This document shows, piece after piece, positions 53,025-62,858 of a stretch of 64,000 nt of DNA; the stretch's first letter is position 1; every line of letters starts with the position of its first letter. The DNA comes from Mariniflexile fucanivorans (GTDB lineage Bacteria > Bacteroidota > Bacteroidia > Flavobacteriales > Flavobacteriaceae). The notes beneath the pieces were generated by a model. It had not been told where the DNA came from and ran no database searches. It worked only from the letters and a program-made list of their open reading frames with translations. Location of the stretch: the NCBI RefSeq assembly GCF_004341235.1, contig NZ_SLUP01000001.1:558001-622000 (forward strand), given 5' to 3'. A program made the position numbers and the translations under genes.

Positions 53025-55277
53025 TTATTTCAGCATATATCGCAATCCAAAAAACAAGCGTCTTCCTTGATTGGGTGCATAAATATAGCCAGGATCGAAG
53101 GTTAAAGCATACGGGTTATTGGCTGTTTGTGTCGCATTTCCGTTGCCATCAAAAACAACATCATTATCAAACGGGTCGTTCGCTCTTGCTATTATAAACG
53201 GATTTCCTTTATTTGGGGTCCAGTCTAACAGGTTTTTAACTCCGCCATAAAACTCAAAATTCTTTAAGCCATCATAGGTTATTTGTATGTTTTGAATGCT
53301 CCAAATGGGTGATTCTGGTAATCTAGGATCTAAATCACCTAAAATAGGCAATCTCATGGGGCCATAAATATTACCTGTATAATCAATTAAGAAATTATGA
53401 TTGAAGTTTTTATAAGAAACAGACCAAGTTCCAGAGTATTTTTCAGTTAAAATTTGCTGTTGCTTAATGCCATCTTCTTTTTGGGTTACTTCTTGAACTG
53501 TAAACCCTGCTAAAGCTTTAAAATTACTTGTTATTATGGCGTCTATATTAACACTAAAACCCAAACTTGAGGCGCCACCACTTAAATTATCATAAATAAC
53601 TTGATTCGGGTTGGTATCATAATCTGGTAAAATAGCATTGGTAAAGAAGGTGTACCAAGCAGAGGCATCAATCCCTATTATTTTTCCGCTTTTTGTATAT
53701 AACTTTTTAAGGTAATTTAAATTGACGTTATACGAGCGTTCTGGTTTTAATTCCTCTTCAATAATAACATCTCTTGCGCCATTTAATGCGGCATGCTCTT
53801 CGGTAAACAGATTTACAACTCGGAAACCAGTACCTGCGTTCAATCTAAAAATATCATGTTCTGTTGGTTTAAATTTATAGGCTATTCTAGGGGTGAAAAT
53901 ATTGCCATGGCGTTTATCGTAATCATATCTAGCACCAAGTAACACTTTATGTTTTTCATTTAATTTTATTTCATCTTGAAGGAATAGTGAAGGAATCACT
54001 ATTTCATCTTCTTGTTCAGTAACCGGCGTGTTATCATTATAATAATTGTAACGTCCTGAAACTCCCAAAAGCCAATCGTGATTCTGGTTTGAAATATCCC
54101 ATGTTAATTGACCAAAACCGATGCGTTGTTGCGCTAAATACAAGGTATTACCATAGGCTGAATTTTGGTCATGATCTGAATATGAAAACTGAAACATCAT
54201 TTTTTCCTGTATAGGTAATTGATACTTTCCAATTAATTCATAACGCGTTGTGTAGATACTTTCGCCATATACATCGCTACCACCTCTGTACTCTGGTGTC
54301 CATTGCATTTCGCCACCCCAGCGGTCTTCGTAAAAAAAGCGACCAGCTAACGAAAATGCTCTGTTGTTTTGCCTTTTGAAATCCCATTTTTGAAAAACAG
54401 AAATACGGTCTTGCAAGGTAACATCGGTAAAATTATCATTATTCGCATCAATAGGATTTGAATAATTAAAATAATTAGCTCCTAAAAGCATGGTCGCTTT
54501 TTTACCCACATTTGCTTTAAAACCTAAATCAACATTTAGTTCTTCCCAATCTGTGGTATAACTATCAACAAATACAAGTGGTGCATTTTCAGGAAGTTTT
54601 GTAATAACGTTAATTAATCCGCCCACAGCTTCACTTCCATAAAGTGATGACGCCGGTCCTTTAACTATTTCAACCTGTTCTATTAAAGAGCTTGGAATGC
54701 CTGAAAGTCCATATACGGTAGAGAGTCCACTTACTATAGGCATACCATCAATTAGCACTAATGTATAAGGCCCTTCTAATCCATTTATGTGAATATCACC
54801 CGTATTGCAAACGCTACAATTTATTTGAGGGCGCACCCCATTTACGGCTTGTAAAGATTCGAAAATATTAGGTGCTGGATTTTTTTTTAGGAATGTTGGA
54901 GAATACACTTCCACGGGAACAGGACTTTCTAATCTGGTTACAGGTTTAAGGGTTCCAGTTATAACAATTTCGTCTAGTAATTCATCTTCCACTAAATTTA
55001 TATCAAGATTAATATGCCCTCCTTTTAATGTTATAGGTTTTTGAATTGTTTTAAAACCTGTATAGGAAACGATTAATGTATAATTGCCTTCTTTAACATT
55101 TTCTATTATAAAACCGCCATCTTCCCTAGTTACAGCCCCTTTAGATGTGCCTTTTAAATACACGTTTACATAAGGAAGGGATTCATCATCAGTTGTTATT
55201 TTACCCGATATATTGTAAGTGTTATCTGCATTCAATACATTGGAAAGAAGCAAAAACAAGGCAATAAGGTTCTTCAT
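53025..55277 (-). CDS. TonB-dependent receptor with CxxC in the plug domain
   Basis: 750 residues: a signal peptide (about 1-17), a carboxypeptidase-regulatory-like domain (20-96; YNISGKITTDDESLPYVNVYLKG), a plug (~100-230) and a beta barrel ending LFFGLRYMLK. The plug contains NCSVCNTGDIHINGLEGPY with Cys154 and Cys157, close to the site where substrates dock, and VEIVKGPASSLYGSEAVGGLINV. It is divergent from two DtxR-type regulators and a feoB pair, across 171 bases that contain a DtxR-like operator, so it probably imports an iron or manganese compound. The cysteines could bind a metal directly. It could alternatively be a siderophore receptor. Confidence 0.85.
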   Translation of the reverse strand: MKNLIALFLLLSNVLNADNTYNISGKITTDDESLPYVNVYLKGTSKGAVTREDGGFIIENVKEGNYTLIVSYTGFKTIQKPITLKGGHINLDINLVEDELLDEIVITGTLKPVTRLESPVPVEVYSPTFLKKNPAPNIFESLQAVNGVRPQINCSVCNTGDIHINGLEGPYTLVLIDGMPIVSGLSTVYGLSGIPSSLIEQVEIVKGPASSLYGSEAVGGLINVITKLPENAPLVFVDSYTTDWEELNVDLGFKANVGKKATMLLGANYFNYSNPIDANNDNFTDVTLQDRISVFQKWDFKRQNNRAFSLAGRFFYEDRWGGEMQWTPEYRGGSDVYGESIYTTRYELIGKYQLPIQEKMMFQFSYSDHDQNSAYGNTLYLAQQRIGFGQLTWDISNQNHDWLLGVSGRYNYYNDNTPVTEQEDEIVIPSLFLQDEIKLNEKHKVLLGARYDYDKRHGNIFTPRIAYKFKPTEHDIFRLNAGTGFRVVNLFTEEHAALNGARDVIIEEELKPERSYNVNLNYLKKLYTKSGKIIGIDASAWYTFFTNAILPDYDTNPNQVIYDNLSGGASSLGFSVNIDAIITSNFKALAGFTVQEVTQKEDGIKQQQILTEKYSGTWSVSYKNFNHNFLIDYTGNIYGPMRLPILGDLDPRLPESPIWSIQNIQITYDGLKNFEFYGGVKNLLDWTPNKGNPFIIARANDPFDNDVVFDGNGNATQTANNPYALTFDPGYIYAPNQGRRLFFGLRYMLK

Positions 55278-55364: not shown

Positions 55365-55384
55365 TTTTTAGTCTTGCCTAAAAA
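55365..55384. promoter_or_regulatory. DtxR/MntR-type operator
   Basis: TTTTTAG-TCTTGC-CTAAAAA is a perfect 7-base inverted repeat. Its core TTTAGTCTTGCCTAAA resembles the DtxR/IdeR/MntR consensus (TTAGG...CCTAA). It lies between the divergent receptor and dtxR promoters, 26 bases before the dtxR -7 element. Confidence 0.6.
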
Positions 55385-55435: not shown

Positions 55436-55461
55436 ATGATTACATTATATGATTACATTAT
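55436..55461 (+). repeat. 13-base tandem duplication spanning the dtxR start codon
   Basis: ATGATTACATTAT occurs twice back to back (55436-55448 and 55449-55461). The second copy holds the real start. The first gives an out-of-frame ATG with a short decoy ORF of about 45 codons. Confidence 0.85.
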
Positions 55462-56102
55462 CAGAAGAAAATTATTTAAAAGCTATTTACCATTTAGGGA
55501 AGCAAGGTGTTGCAGCCGTAAGCACCAATGCTATTGCAGAAAAGATAGAATCGAAAGCTTCTTCGGTAACTGATATGGTTAAAAAACTAGCAGATAAAAA
55601 TTTAGCCAATTATGTAAAGTATCAAGGCGTAAGTTTAACGAACGAAGGGCGTTTAGCTGCTGCTTTAGTTATTAGAAAACACCGTCTTTGGGAAGTGTTT
55701 TTAGTTGAAAAACTTAACTTTTCTTGGGATGAAGTGCATGATGTTGCCGAACAATTAGAGCATATAAAATCATTAAAATTGGTAAATGAATTAGATGCTT
55801 TTTTAGGGTTTCCAACCCACGATCCCCATGGCGACCCCATTCCAGATAAAGATGGCAAATATGCGCCAAATAAAAGTGTTAATATTCTAGATTTAGAAAT
55901 TGGCAGTGAAGGTATTTTGTCTTTGGTTAAAGATTCTTCCGATGTGTTTTTAAAATACTTAAATAAAAACAATTTGGCTTTGGGAGATGTTATTAAGGTT
56001 TTAGAGTTCGAACCGTTTGATGATTCGGTAACTATTCAAACAAAAGAAAGGCAAATTATTATTTCTAAAGAAGTTGCCAAAAATTTATACTTAAGTCTAT
56101 AA
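55449..56102 (+). CDS. DtxR-family metal-dependent transcriptional regulator
   Basis: 217 residues. The winged helix is at 1-65 (ALKAIYHLGKQGVAAVSTNAIAEKI), the dimerisation/metal domain at ~65-140 (KHRLWEVFLVEKLNFSWDEVHDVAEQLEHI, then FLGFPTHDPHGDPIPD), and an SH3/FeoA-like domain at ~145-217. Metal ligands of this family (His, Glu, Asp) are present in the HDVAEQLEH and HDPHGDP segments. DtxR-type proteins repress iron or manganese uptake genes when the metal is bound. A palindromic operator lies in its own promoter region. It is followed two bases later by a second DtxR-like protein, with the FeoB genes after that. Confidence 0.92.
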   Translation: MITLSEENYLKAIYHLGKQGVAAVSTNAIAEKIESKASSVTDMVKKLADKNLANYVKYQGVSLTNEGRLAAALVIRKHRLWEVFLVEKLNFSWDEVHDVAEQLEHIKSLKLVNELDAFLGFPTHDPHGDPIPDKDGKYAPNKSVNILDLEIGSEGILSLVKDSSDVFLKYLNKNNLALGDVIKVLEFEPFDDSVTIQTKERQIIISKEVAKNLYLSL

Positions 56103-56104
56103 TT

Positions 56105-57124
56105 ATGAAGTACAATCCCACATACGCCCTCATTCTATTTTTTATCATATCGGGTGTTTTATATGTGCTATTTCGGCCTGCAAAAGGTTGGTTTTGGATT
56201 ATAAAAAACAACTTTAAAAGCAACGAAAAAATAGTCACTGAAGATATATTAAAACAACTATACCATTTTGAGAATTCGGGAAATAAGGTCGATACCAAAA
56301 CATTGCTTCAGGTATTAGACTTTAATAACAATCAAATTATAGAAGTTGTAAAAAAAATGACCATCAATGATTTAATTTATTTTGAATCGGATGTATTAAA
56401 ATTAACGAATGCTGGTAGAGATTATGCTTTACGAATTGTTAGAATTCACCGACTTTGGGAACGTTATTTAGCCGATAAAACAGGGTTTAGTAAAGAAGAA
56501 TGGCATGATAGAGCAGAAATGATGGAGCACAAATTAAACCATGATGAAACCAATACGTTGGCGGCTCATTTAGGAAATCCAAAATTTGACCCACATGGCG
56601 ACCCCATACCTACTAAAACAGGAAAAGTGGCGGAAGTTCATGGTGTAGAATTGCCTTTATTACCTGTAAATTCCATTGGAAGAATTACCCATATAGAAGA
56701 TGAACCCGAGATTATTTATAAGCAAATTTTAGCTGAAAACATTCACATGGGGTCGCTTATTAGAGTGGTTGAAAACAACGCAACGCGAATTGTTTTTCTT
56801 TCGGAAGGAGAAGAGTTTAGGTTAGCACCCATTGTGGCGGCTAATTTAACTGTAGCTCCTATTGAAAAAGAAATTATAATTGAGGATAATATTGCCAGAT
56901 TATCAAGCTTAAAAGAAGATGAGACGGCCATAATAACAGGCATTTCAAAAGAAAGTAGAGGGGAAAGCAGACGCCGTTTACTCGATTTAGGCTTTGTAAA
57001 AGGTGCCACTATCAAAATAGATTTAATAAATCCATTGGGCGAACCGAATGCTTACCTTATTAAAGGCACCTCCATTGCTTTACGAAAAGATCAAGCGGCA
57101 AAAATTCTTATTAAAAAAGATTAA
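56105..57124 (+). CDS. membrane-anchored DtxR-like protein fused to a FeoA domain
   Basis: 339 residues. An N-terminal membrane helix (about 7-24; YALILFFIISGVLYVLF) precedes a short basic linker, a winged helix (~40-100), a DtxR metal/dimer domain (~105-175; HRLWERYLADKTGFSKEEWHDRAEMMEHKL and FDPHGDPIP) and an SH3-like segment. The C-terminal ~75 residues are a FeoA domain (ETAIITGISKESRGESRRRLLDLGFVKGATIKI). The domain order of its neighbour is thus repeated and extended. FeoA partners FeoB, so this fusion may link metal sensing to FeoB at the membrane. Whether the winged helix still binds DNA is unknown. It starts two bases after the first regulator. Confidence 0.85.
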   Translation: MKYNPTYALILFFIISGVLYVLFRPAKGWFWIIKNNFKSNEKIVTEDILKQLYHFENSGNKVDTKTLLQVLDFNNNQIIEVVKKMTINDLIYFESDVLKLTNAGRDYALRIVRIHRLWERYLADKTGFSKEEWHDRAEMMEHKLNHDETNTLAAHLGNPKFDPHGDPIPTKTGKVAEVHGVELPLLPVNSIGRITHIEDEPEIIYKQILAENIHMGSLIRVVENNATRIVFLSEGEEFRLAPIVAANLTVAPIEKEIIIEDNIARLSSLKEDETAIITGISKESRGESRRRLLDLGFVKGATIKIDLINPLGEPNAYLIKGTSIALRKDQAAKILIKKD

Positions 57125-57127
57125 TTT

Positions 57128-57892
57128 ATGGATACTAAAGTAAAAAGTGCTTGCGAAACCTGTGCCCATTTTAATGCAGATGGTTTAAAAAAAATGGGCA
57201 TTCATACAGATAATGTCGATTTTGTAGTAGCACTCGCAGGAAATCCAAACACAGGAAAAAGTACCGTTTTTAATTCATTAACCGGTTTACGCCAGCACAC
57301 AGGCAATTGGCCAGGTAAAACAGTAACTAGGGCCGAAGGTGGTTTTGAGTATAACAAACAAAAATATAAGTTAGTCGATTTACCAGGCACCTATTCATTA
57401 CTTTCGACTTCGGAAGATGAAGCTGCGGCCAGAGATTTTATTCTTTTTGGAAAACCAGATGTCACAGTTATTGTAGCCGATGCGAATCGATTGGAACGTA
57501 ACTTAAACTTGGTGCTTCAAATTTTAGAAATTACCGATAAAGCTGTGTTATGTTTGAATTTAATGGATGAAGCCAAACGAAACCACATTATTATTGATGA
57601 AAGAACTTTGGCACGCGATTTAGGTATTCCTGTGGTTGCCACCAGCGCTAGGTTTAGTCAAGGAATTCCCGAATTGATACACACTATAAGTGAGATTGCT
57701 AATGGAAATATTATTTGTAAACCACACCGTATTAAAAACGTACCGAGTAATATTGAAAACGCTGTTAAAACACTTACTGCTGAGATTGAAAAAGAGTTTC
57801 CTAACATTCCGAATAGTCGATGGATTGCATTTAGACTGCTGGAAGGAGATACCGAGATTATTAAAGCTTTAAAATCGGGTGAATTAGTTTAA
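57128..57892 (+). CDS. FeoB G domain (split FeoB, N-terminal part)
   Basis: 254 residues. Cys9 and Cys12 form an N-terminal CxxC (CETCAHF). The G domain shows G1 GNPNTGKST (38-46), G2 TGNWPGKT (58-65), G3 DLPG (84-87), G4 NLMD (144-147) and G5 near ATSARF. A helical GDI-like region follows to the end. In ordinary FeoB this continues into the membrane domain. Here the ORF ends with TAA, three codons are passed and the membrane part begins with ATG in the same frame. It starts three bases after the FeoA-fusion gene, so all four genes form one operon. Confidence 0.9.
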
Positions 57893-57901
57893 AATAAAAT
57901 C

Positions 57902-59320
57902 ATGGCAAATAAAAATATAGATCACATATTAGAACTCTCAAATGAATTGCGTTGGCAAATTGGCGATGAATTTCATGATAATTTAACCGAAGGTATTTAT
58001 GCCGATGCCGCTCAAATTGTGAGTGATACCGTGCAAGTTGATGAGTCAAAAAAACGCTTCCGATTAGATAGACAAATCGATAAAATAGTGACGAGTAAGG
58101 TTTTTGGATTTCCCATCATGTTTTTAATCTTGGCAACGGTGCTTTGGTTAACAATTATTGGAGCCAATTATCCATCGTCGTTATTGGCACAATTATTATT
58201 AGATACCTTTCATCCCATTTTAAAAACGGGTGTGGCAGCTATTAATATGCCTTGGTGGCTTAGTGGTTTTTTAATTGATGGTGTGTATTTAGCCGTCGCT
58301 TGGGTAATTGCTGTTATGTTACCGCCTATGGCTATATTTTTTCCCATGTTTACACTTTTAGAAGATTTTGGTTATTTACCGCGTGTAGCATTTAATTTAG
58401 ACAATTTATTTAAAAAATCGGGCGCTCATGGTAAACAAGCATTGACTATGACAATGGGTTTTGGTTGTAATGCAGCAGGCGTCGTAGCTACGCGTATTAT
58501 TGACAGCCCCAGAGAACGCTTAATCGCTATTATTACCAATAATTTTTCTCTTTGTAATGGGCGTTGGCCTACACAAATACTAATTGCCACTATTTTTATT
58601 GGTGCTGTTGTTCCATCCACATTTTCTAGTCTAGCGTCTTTATTGGCAGTAATAGTTATAGCGGTTTTAGGGATGGCATTTATGTTTGGTACATCGTGGG
58701 CATTGTCAAAAACATTATTAAAAGGGCAAGTTTCTACATTTAATTTAGAATTGCCTCCGTACCGTCCACCACGTTTTTGGAAAACCATTTACACATCGTT
58801 AATTGACAGAACCATGATTGTTTTATGGCGCGCCATTGTATTTGCTGCGCCTGCAGGTGCTGTTATTTGGCTTATTTCAAATATTTATATTGGAAATGAA
58901 AGTATTGCTGCTTGGGCTATTGACTCCATGAATGGATTCGGGTTTCTTTTAGGTTTAAATGGCGTGATTTTGTTAGCTTATATCGTAGCCATTCCAGCTA
59001 ATGAAATAGTGATTCCTACCATATTAATGCTTACGGTTTTAGTAACGGGCATTGATGGAGGTGCAGGTGCAGGTGTTATGTTTGAACTTGATTCAGTAAA
59101 TGCTACAGGCGATATTTTAAAAGCAGGAGGTTGGACGTTATTAACCGCCATTAATTTGATGCTTTTTAGCTTGCTTCATAACCCATGTAGCACGACCATT
59201 TATACCATTTACAAAGAAACAAAAAGTGTAAAGTGGACGGTTTTTGCATCCATAATGCCTGTAATTTTAGGGTTTATAGTTACATTTTTAGTGGCTCAAA
59301 TTTGGCGAATTGTGTTTTAG
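57902..59320 (+). CDS. FeoB membrane domain (split FeoB, C-terminal part)
   Basis: 472 residues, polytopic with ~10 membrane helices from about residue 70. The two Gate (nucleoside-recognition) domains are present. The first carries [23 protein letters not shown] and a second Cys in [14 protein letters not shown]; the canonical FeoB 3 kb away has GTACAIPAIMATRNIESWKERLI and TTCSARLPVY at these places. Both Cys positions are kept but the neighbours differ strongly, suggesting another ligand or metal, perhaps manganese as reported for FeoB2 of Porphyromonas. It is last in the operon; no terminator hairpin is obvious. Confidence 0.88.
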
Positions 59321-60531: not shown

Positions 60532-62631
60532 TCACTTTAATAATTGATAAGCAATTAATGCCACTACGTATGCAAAACCACTCATAATAAACAATTGTAA
60601 TGTGGGCCATTTCCAACTATTGGTTTCCCGTTTCACAATGGCTAGTGTACTCATGCATTGCATGGCAAAAGCATAAAAAAGCAGTAATGAAATACCCGAA
60701 GCGAAGTTAAATAAAGGGCCTCCCAGAATTGGGTTAACCTCAGCAGCCATTCGGTTTTTGATGGTGGCTTCATCATCACTTCCAACGCTATAAATAGTTG
60801 CCAAAGTACCCACAAATACTTCTCGGGCAGCAAAACTACTTACTATGGCAATACCTATTTTCCAATCGTAACCTAAAGGTCTTATAGCGGGTTCAATAGC
60901 ATGACCAGCGATACCTATATAAGAATGTTCCAGTTTATAAGAAGCAATATGTTGGTTAATTTCGTCTTCCGATAATTGTTGTGATGCATATTCGGTATTA
61001 ATGATACTTTCGGCATTATTAAAGTTGTCACCAGGGCCATAAGATGCTAAAAACCATAAAATAATAGAAATAGCTAGAATAATCTTTCCAGCACCAAATA
61101 CAAAAGATTTTGTTTTTTCCAACACCGTTATGGCCACATTTTTAAACATAGGCAGCTTATAGTTTGGCATTTCAACAACAAAAAATGTTTTGCTTCTTAT
61201 TTTTAAAACCTTGTTTAATATGTAAGCCGAAAGAACAGCTATACCAAACCCAATAAAATATAAAAGCATTAATGTTAAAGCTTGATAACCTAAACCTAAA
61301 AATCGACCTTCAGGAATAATTAAAGATATAATGATTAAGTAAACCGGCAATCTGGCAGAACAGGTTGTAAAAGGCGTTACTAAAATGGTTATTAAACGCT
61401 CTTTCCAACTTTCAATATTTCTGGTAGCCATAATAGCAGGAATGGCACAAGCGGTACCTGAAATTAAAGGCACAACACTTTTTCCGCTTAACCCAAAGCG
61501 ACGCATGATTCTGTCCATTAAAAATACCACTCGACTCATGTAACCACTCTCTTCTAACACTGAAATAAACAGGAATAAAAAAGCAATTTGCGGAATAAAA
61601 ATAACAATACCACCAAGCCCGGGAATGATGCCCTCTGCCAACAAATCGGTAAAAGCACCTTGTGGCAACTGGATCTTGGTCCATTCGCTTAAGGATGCAA
61701 ATGCGCTATCTATAAAATCCATAGGAACACTAGACCAATCGTAAATAGCTTGAAAAATGGTTAATAAAATAACAAAGAAAATAAAATAGCCCCAAATTCT
61801 GTGCGTTAAAATTCGGTCTAATTTTGAACGTAAATCTTTGGCTTGCGAAGCATCAATAGTTTGCCCATGCTTAAGCGCATTATTGATAAACTGGTAACGT
61901 TTTATGGTTTCTTTTTGCTGTAATCGTTTTAAATCGGCTTTACTTTTGGTCTTAAAATTCGCAACAGCTTCAATTTCCTTTCGATCTGTTTTTCCGAAGT
62001 TAACATCCTGCGTTATAACTAACCATAATTTATATAAAAGTTGGTTAGGGAATGCTTTCTGTAAATTGTCAAAATATTCTTTATCAATATCAGAAGGGTT
62101 TATGCAAGGTGTTACAGAAAGCTCTTTATAATTTGCAATTAGATTTTTTAAATTGTCAATTCCTTCTTTTTTTCGGGTACTTATTAAAGCTATTTTTGTT
62201 TGAAGTTCAGCTTCTAAATAATCAATATCCAAAGAAATTCCTTTGTAGCGCATCCTATCGGCCATATTAATTACCAATAGCGTAGGGATTTCTAAATCTT
62301 TAATTTGGGTAAAAAGGAGCAGGTTCCGTTTTAAATTTTCAACATCACTTACCACAACAGCAATATCAGGAAAGTCTTTATCGTTTTTATTTAAAAGCAA
62401 TTCAATAACCACATTTTCATCTAAAGATGATGCGTTTAAACTGTAAGTTCCGGGCAAATCGATAATATGTGCCTTAATACCGCGAGATAATTTGCAAACC
62501 CCTTCCTTTTTTTCTACAGTAATACCAGGGTAGTTGCCCACTTGTTGGTTTAAACCGGTAAGCGCATTAAAAACCGAAGTTTTTCCTGTGTTAGGGTTCC
62601 CTATTAAAGCTACATTTATTTGCTTGCTCAT
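60532..62631 (-). CDS. feoB: ferrous iron transport protein B
   Basis: 699 residues, full length. The G domain has G1 GNPNTGKTS (11-19), G2 TGLNQQVGNYPG, G3 DLPGTYS and G4 NMAD, followed by a GDI region and a polytopic membrane domain with two Gate repeats. The first Gate carries GTACAIPAIMATRNIESWKERLI and TTCSARLPVYLI, the canonical iron-type motif with both Cys. FeoB imports Fe(II) across the inner membrane and hydrolyses GTP/ATP. The start codon overlaps the feoA stop by four bases. It is the intact counterpart of the split FeoB at 57-59 kb. Confidence 0.95.
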   Translation of the reverse strand: MSKQINVALIGNPNTGKTSVFNALTGLNQQVGNYPGITVEKKEGVCKLSRGIKAHIIDLPGTYSLNASSLDENVVIELLLNKNDKDFPDIAVVVSDVENLKRNLLLFTQIKDLEIPTLLVINMADRMRYKGISLDIDYLEAELQTKIALISTRKKEGIDNLKNLIANYKELSVTPCINPSDIDKEYFDNLQKAFPNQLLYKLWLVITQDVNFGKTDRKEIEAVANFKTKSKADLKRLQQKETIKRYQFINNALKHGQTIDASQAKDLRSKLDRILTHRIWGYFIFFVILLTIFQAIYDWSSVPMDFIDSAFASLSEWTKIQLPQGAFTDLLAEGIIPGLGGIVIFIPQIAFLFLFISVLEESGYMSRVVFLMDRIMRRFGLSGKSVVPLISGTACAIPAIMATRNIESWKERLITILVTPFTTCSARLPVYLIIISLIIPEGRFLGLGYQALTLMLLYFIGFGIAVLSAYILNKVLKIRSKTFFVVEMPNYKLPMFKNVAITVLEKTKSFVFGAGKIILAISIILWFLASYGPGDNFNNAESIINTEYASQQLSEDEINQHIASYKLEHSYIGIAGHAIEPAIRPLGYDWKIGIAIVSSFAAREVFVGTLATIYSVGSDDEATIKNRMAAEVNPILGGPLFNFASGISLLLFYAFAMQCMSTLAIVKRETNSWKWPTLQLFIMSGFAYVVALIAYQLLK

Positions 62632-62858
62632 CCTTGTTTTTCTATTAAAATATGAACAGCAGTTTCTTTCCGAATTGCCAAATGGGTACCATTTATGTTT
62701 AAATACATGGGGTCCTTAAATGGCGCCAATTGAACAAGTTCTACCAAATTACCAGGTAAACAACCCATTTCTAAGAGTTTTAATGGAATATGAATGGACG
62801 AAACATCTGTAATAATGGCGCGTTCTCCTCGTTTTAATTCGGCTAATGTGTATTGCAA
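62628..62858 (-). CDS. feoA: ferrous iron transport protein A
   Basis: 76 residues, a typical FeoA: the SH3-like fold is visible as LAELKRGERAIITDVSSIHIPLKLLEMGCLPGNLVELVQLAPFKDPMYLNINGTHLAIRKETAVHI. FeoA binds the FeoB G domain or membrane part and is needed for iron uptake. Its ATG is preceded by a minus-strand -7 element and its stop overlaps the feoB start (ATGA type), so the two are translationally coupled. Confidence 0.95.
   Translation of the reverse strand: MQYTLAELKRGERAIITDVSSIHIPLKLLEMGCLPGNLVELVQLAPFKDPMYLNINGTHLAIRKETAVHILIEKQG

Follow-up and report, generated by a model that had tools for sequence, protein, structure and literature searches.

A DtxR-FeoA protein with a predicted membrane anchor and a decayed DNA-binding surface, encoded beside FeoB, as a candidate metal-sensing FeoA subunit

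Described DtxR-FeoA proteins and the build of the locus

The closest described relative of the protein considered here is PgMntR (PG1044) of Porphyromonas gingivalis, a characterised soluble DtxR protein with twin FeoA domains, whose authors put forward a two-FeoA subfamily of DtxR proteins. According to their report, the PgMntR operon includes the FeoB protein FB2, a manganese transporter; each PgMntR monomer binds three Mn(II) or two Fe (overall Kd 2e-11 M), and the protein requires its last FeoA domain for both manganese and DNA binding and binds the promoter DNA of its own operon at 700-1000 nM even when metal-free (PMC4805248). For FeoA, interaction with the G-domain stabilises GTP-bound FeoB, and in BfFeoAB of Bacteroides fragilis a FeoA domain fused straight to FeoB, without a metal sensor, acts on that G-domain (PMC8980893). 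The survey in the same source took out DtxR-FeoA fusions by hand, which may explain why the anchored population described below was passed over. Finally, MntR, ScaR, SloR and DtxR (5zr6, 3hrs, 5cvi, 1c0w) share with our protein the DtxR fold, the first SH3-like fold and the pattern of metal ligands, but they have an intact DNA-binding helix and lack both a membrane helix and a second FeoA domain.

We analysed 64,000 nucleotides of the Mariniflexile fucanivorans genome, hereafter the window. Four genes follow one another on its plus strand: a soluble DtxR (55449-56102), the protein under study (56105-57124, 339 aa), a FeoB G-domain protein with an N-terminal CxxC (57128-57892; Pfam and clade comparison) and a FeoB membrane, or Gate, protein (57902-59320; Pfam). 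The original prediction had named these neighbours correctly as an ordinary DtxR, here 217 aa long, and a split FeoB. The frame of interest opens with an ATG at 56105, 2 bp past the dtxR stop, and its own stop ends at 57124; a chance open reading frame is ruled out, as the entire architecture recurs across homologous loci. From the N-terminus the protein comprises a predicted membrane helix (residues 5-22, 56117-56170), a long helix leading into DtxR helix 1 (29-58, 56189-56278), a winged-helix domain whose recognition helix and wing are decayed (44-101, 56234-56407), a DtxR metal-binding and dimerisation domain (101-170, 56405-56614), a first SH3-like domain bearing an invariant D199 (about 184-252, 56654-56860) and a C-terminal FeoA domain (265-337, 56897-57115).

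Pfam recognises the metal domain (Fe_dep_repr_C, PF02742, residues 101-170; E 4e-25, 88 bits against a cut-off of 27) and the FeoA domain (PF04023, residues 265-337; E 8e-20, 71 bits against 23), and both models match at E<=0.01 in all 101 aligned homologues. No NCBIfam model reached its cut-off with the window protein. An AlphaFold2 model built from 101 sequences (pLDDT 92, pTM 0.83) gives the same order of parts, helices 5-22 and 29-58, winged helix, metal domain and then two SH3-like barrels (191-252 and 274-338), only the second of which is matched by Pfam. Foldseek places the DtxR and first SH3-like part on the MntR-type structure 5zr6 (E 3e-16), and in a phmmer search the FeoA domain finds FeoA structures, the best being 7r7b (labelled FeoB, 76 aa). 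The architecture read originally from the letters, an N-terminal helix, winged helix, DtxR metal domain and FeoA, is thus borne out by the frame, Pfam and AlphaFold2, with the amendment that the SH3-like domains number two and not one. Its further remark that no clearly membrane-bound DtxR-FeoA protein had been characterised agrees with our literature search, in which the titles and abstract openings covered, drawn from a collection with few subscription journals, described neither a membrane-bound DtxR-FeoA protein nor a permease-DtxR fusion.

PgMntR has the same winged helix, DtxR metal domain and two FeoA/SH3 domains, and likewise a feoB in its operon; it differs in having been studied as a DNA-binding repressor and in lacking the anchor, since its published DNA-binding domain begins at residue 13 and leaves no room for a membrane helix. 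As PgMntR already defines the two-FeoA DtxRs, the present protein is a variant of that class, membrane-anchored and, judged by its sequence, not a DNA reader.

Homologues were collected by scanning genome contigs with a 17-row alignment, which returned at least 594 stretches, at least 588 of them encoding relatives. The best 80 loci were retained, a choice biased towards full-length relatives, and together with loci from family and class samples and one record from a plasmid collection they make 112 loci, or 106 distinct ones, window included, after removal of six contig repeats. Record titles name Bacteroidota, Chloroflexota (Anaerolineae), Ignavibacteria, Calditrichota, Gemmatimonadota, Verrucomicrobiota, Planctomycetota, Acidobacteria, KSB1 and Balneolales, about ten phyla in all, although many loci are metagenome bins and single phylum assignments may be wrong. 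A near full-length match was found in 3 of 295 class-sample genomes, and the phylum sample contained the protein in 34 of 296 genomes (HMM E<=1e-55).

The N-terminal helix is kept in 103 of the 106 distinct loci; these loci were the top hits of full-length anchored queries, and the share is therefore no census. It is absent in three (L062, L107 and L140), the first being a Prevotella homologue that is helix-less like PgMntR, and by eye it lies in frame behind a non-ATG start in L102 and L128; these five rows stand outside the alignment of 101 proteins. Every aligned protein reaches a peak 17-residue Kyte-Doolittle value of at least 1.6, against none of 74 DtxRs encoded at the same loci. Furthermore, lysine and arginine are more frequent past the helix than ahead of it in 101/101, and the remainder of the protein is therefore expected in the cytoplasm, with the helix running N-out/C-in by the positive-inside rule. 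A mis-called start, which the original prediction had named as a possible refutation, is ruled out by the conservation of the helix and of its P-x-x-G border. The protein is almost certainly anchored in the membrane.

Linkage to FeoB and the metal sites

In 105 of the 106 distinct loci, the anchored frame is followed within 133 bp by a FeoB G-domain frame of a single clade, and in the remaining one (L098) the contig ends 138 bp past that frame. The FeoB of this clade is split in 90 loci and unsplit in 11, and in 4 the G-domain part alone was seen. Among 299 genomes of the family sample, the clade's FeoB membrane protein occurs in 34 (E<=1e-60) and the anchored protein in 32 (E<=1e-45), all 32 lying within the 34. 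Conservation across Flavobacteriaceae, which had been proposed as a check, is accordingly patchy at 32/299, and where the protein is present it comes with this FeoB clade. One genome (G310) counts against tight linkage, its FeoB membrane protein sitting on a different contig, and none of the 112 loci was flagged as having the anchored protein naturally fused to FeoB.

Two genomes that have the clade FeoB without the anchored protein (G317 and G588) carry a plain FeoA directly ahead of an unsplit FeoB. These FeoAs match the anchored protein at 65 and 55 bits, as against 22-23 bits for the FeoA of the second Feo system that L063 and L150 carry; being the nearer relatives of its FeoA domain, they indicate that the anchored protein stands in for FeoA. 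Additionally, positions 292, 295, 324 and 326 of its FeoA domain are hydrophobic in all 101 aligned proteins. These match residues 27, 30, 59 and 61 of 7r7b, which agree in turn with the hydrophobic clamp described for FeoA in the B. fragilis study (PMC8980893). Taken as a whole, the anchored protein is very probably the FeoA subunit of this FeoB importer, and we predict that it binds the G-domain.

Several features of the FeoB genes were seen alongside. The CxxC at 57152-57163 (residues 9-12 of the G-domain protein) is a possible metal or redox site; together with a conserved stretch ahead of the G1 loop it occurs in 101 of 105 FeoB G-domain frames of the clade, and it is also present in the two FeoBs that follow a plain FeoA. 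A conventional second Feo system follows 1.2 kb further downstream on the minus strand (60532-62849) and comprises an unsplit FeoB of 699 aa (60532-62631), which begins at the G1 region without a CxxC, and a small FeoA (62637-62849); the presence of both systems suggests two metals or two conditions. In L058 (2507-4012) an unsplit FeoB apparently lacks the part past residue 152 of the G-domain protein, ahead of the membrane part, for which a real deletion and an assembly error are both possible.

The putative metal sites of the anchored protein are conserved throughout its range. H115, E119, H134, E141, H142, D162, H164 and D199 are identical in 101/101 proteins, D47 is kept in 99, and at position 138 there are 88 proteins with Glu and 10 with Asp. 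Alignment to DtxR, MntR and ScaR predicts a primary site formed by positions 47, 138, 141 and 142, joined by 115, and an ancillary one of 119, 162, 164 and 199 that would bridge the metal domain and the first SH3-like domain. The Asp at 47 is MntR-like, DtxR having Met there. This assignment of residue roles follows in part the PgMntR report (PMC4805248). We have good confidence that the anchored protein binds metal, which is presumably Mn or Fe.

The same conservation bears on a purely structural role, in which a DtxR relic would just tether and dimerise FeoA, with structural metals and no sensing. The replacement of the whole protein by free FeoA in two genomes speaks for such a role, as does the conservation of the FeoA domain, which is close to that of the metal domain (mean column entropy 1.46 and 1.21 bits). 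The ligands of both predicted sites, including D199, are however near-invariant at deep divergence, which exceeds the needs of a tether, and we consider this explanation unlikely.

The DNA-reading surface and the soluble regulator

The regulator encoded directly upstream is a canonical soluble DtxR/MntR-type protein of 217 aa with an intact DNA-binding domain (PF01325, E 2.7e-14). With the same Pfam model (Fe_dep_repress) the anchored protein of the window scores 13.7 bits, short of the cut-off of 26, whereas the neighbouring DtxR scores 53.6. Across the loci, the model matches 24 of 101 anchored proteins at E<=0.01 (best E 6e-6) compared with all 74 same-locus DtxRs (best 3e-20), the latter having been chosen by likeness to the window DtxR (>100 bits; 70 adjacent on the same strand, four farther away or on the other strand), a choice that favours intact ones. 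These soluble DtxRs carry Asn (58/74) or Asp (16/74) at the position of MntR Asp8 and DtxR Met10, which makes for an unusual primary-site ligand.

In the 70 loci where the two genes lie side by side, mean pairwise identity is 0.23 among anchored proteins versus 0.62 among DtxRs for the recognition helix, 0.35 versus 0.56 for the wing and 0.25 versus 0.42 for the turn and helix 2; for helix 1 it is 0.63 in both, and for the metal domain 0.66 versus 0.63. Within the family (28 loci), recognition-helix identity is 0.40 versus 0.84. Charge has shifted as well: the winged helix carries a mean net charge of -3.0 in anchored proteins and +2.1 in DtxRs and is lower in 63 of the 70 pairs, although for the recognition helix alone the anchored charge falls below that of the paired DtxR in just 46/70.

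An HMM of the DtxR winged helix gives anchored proteins a mean of 16.6 bits where a dtxR is adjacent (70 proteins) and 12.2 bits where none is (27), four rows having been set aside for too short an upstream sequence. Retention of DNA reading at loci that have no dtxR next door is thus not seen in these two values. The DtxRs that trained the model average 94.7 bits, and 27 other DtxRs average 80.0 bits with the lowest near zero. The winged-helix fold itself is kept at high confidence (AlphaFold2, Foldseek). We consider it likely, from these comparisons, that the anchored protein no longer reads DNA.

A predicted operator, the palindrome TTTAGN6CTAAA, lies ahead of the soluble dtxR at 55367-55382. 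It emerged from an exact-dyad search of 72 DtxR upstream regions, in which the top dyad occurred in 24 regions, compared with at most 3 in 20 shuffled sets. The palindrome is present ahead of the adjacent soluble dtxR in 50/69 regions, against 0, 0, 0 and 3/69 for spacing and letter controls, a count that is no independent test because the motif was defined on the counted regions. Of 31 anchored genes that lack a neighbouring dtxR, 7 likewise carry it upstream. The copy at 55367-55382 is the sole exact one in the window, where loose matches mean little (16 with up to one mismatch, 8.6 expected); the M. fucanivorans genome has 22 matches on both strands, against 11 for a reversed control pattern.

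Across the palindrome from dtxR lies a divergent TonB-dependent receptor gene (53025-55277, minus strand). Six of the 80 loci L063-L142 have a related receptor frame in this position (L065, L072, L080, L081, L082 and L105; two of them weak), and this recurrence suggests that an outer-membrane receptor may share the operator.

The original prediction had offered, as one of two options, that metal flux is coupled directly to gene control. A protein of this kind would be a membrane-bound one-component transcription factor, comparable in logic to CadC or ToxR, that reads DNA at the membrane and sets its operon by the metal flux through FeoB. Its winged-helix fold and its DtxR ancestry would suit such a function, and further points in favour are the weak Pfam matches of the minority noted above, the palindromes upstream of those seven anchored genes, and the binding of DNA in vitro by PgMntR (PMC4805248). 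Nonetheless, the recognition helix and wing have decayed, the winged helix is acidic relative to the paired DtxR, helix-turn-helix scores fall far below those of DtxRs whether or not a DtxR gene is adjacent, and the palindrome belongs mostly to the soluble regulator. We therefore regard DNA reading at the membrane as improbable.

A proposed metal valve and its permease-linked relatives

We are now able to propose that the anchored protein serves as a metal-sensing FeoA and gates FeoB post-translationally, and that gene control is handled by the soluble DtxR; we put the probability of this reading at roughly 60%. The protein would act as a FeoA subunit of FeoB with a built-in DtxR-type sensor, held by one helix in the inner membrane with its domains in the cytoplasm. 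Cytoplasmic Mn2+ or Fe2+ would fill the DtxR-type sites and cause the DtxR/SH3 part to repack, and the repacked part would shift the FeoA domain on the FeoB G-domain so that transport is damped or stopped. The soluble upstream DtxR would provide the slow, transcriptional arm through the predicted operator.

The computation supports anchoring, FeoB linkage, the replacement of free FeoA, kept ligands, a decayed DNA surface and a conserved palindrome; we infer physical binding to FeoB and gating, and take the direction of the effect, feedback inhibition instead of activation, from homeostatic logic alone. The other option of the original prediction, a FeoB gate that has lost DNA binding, has thereby gained a genomic fit in its linkage to FeoB, its replacement of free FeoA and its invariant metal sites, the gating itself standing as a proposal. 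A metal chaperone or store, receiving metal at the FeoB exit and handing it on without gating, would suit a cytoplasmic mouth with several predicted metal sites and the three Mn(II) that each PgMntR monomer holds tightly, but it is the least probable alternative, as the affinity reported for PgMntR is high for hand-over (PMC4805248) and the ligands follow the pattern of DtxR/MntR sensors.

A comparable arrangement is found in an unrelated importer. ABC-3 metal permeases (Mn/Zn/Fe-type) with a C-terminal DtxR domain occur in L119 (12940-14439), L147, L148 and L151-L180, and the L119 protein is matched in 30 of 295 class-sample genomes (E<=1e-70); 25 of these 30 loci passed a filter for the DtxR core. 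Aligned by hhalign, the last permease helix and its linker match the anchor and linker of our protein end-to-end over 43 columns (probability 96.4, P 1.4e-9), compared with probabilities of 0.2-26 for six other segments of the same permeases. Both kinds of protein share this last helix, an 'FxPxxG' motif and a basic linker, and the tether at the long helix 29-58 resembles those of the permeases. The eight metal-domain ligands tested are kept in 25/25 permease-fusion DtxR domains, of which 12 have Asn, 11 Asp and 2 His at position 47, and the DNA-binding signature is absent (mean 6.1 bits).

The two groups differ in that one has a whole permease and the other a single helix, and in belonging to an ABC and a Feo system, respectively. 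A single FeoA-type domain was found in the two permease fusions that were scanned, and other fusions leave no room for one. Conversely, PF00950 (ABC-3 permease) has no match in the anchored protein of the window and is not among the 25 families listed for the 101 anchored proteins. In a quick tree of 227 DtxR cores the anchored proteins form one group (support 96) and the permease fusions another (89), although with 130 columns and midpoint rooting the tree gives no direction for the origin of the tether.

We tentatively suggest that tethering a DtxR module to an importer is a general way of building a metal feedback valve that works post-translationally, an idea that we hold to be possible and somewhat short of even odds. 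FeoB and the ABC-3 permeases are unrelated, and in both a DtxR sensor would sit on a homologous helix and linker. The tethered sensor, having kept its metal sites and lost DNA reading, would throttle transport, and the soluble DtxR would set expression. The Feo version may have arisen when such a permease-DtxR fusion was trimmed to its last helix and became linked to FeoA.

These observations bear on two open questions, the function of FeoA and the switching of FeoB. In bacteria of about ten phyla by record title, FeoA has a known metal-sensor module built into it and is fixed beside FeoB. If the proposed reading is true, a repurposed gene regulator would shut a metal importer as a protein valve, the contact between FeoA and FeoB would become testable through a natural metal switch, and some annotated metal-dependent transcriptional regulators would not be transcription factors.
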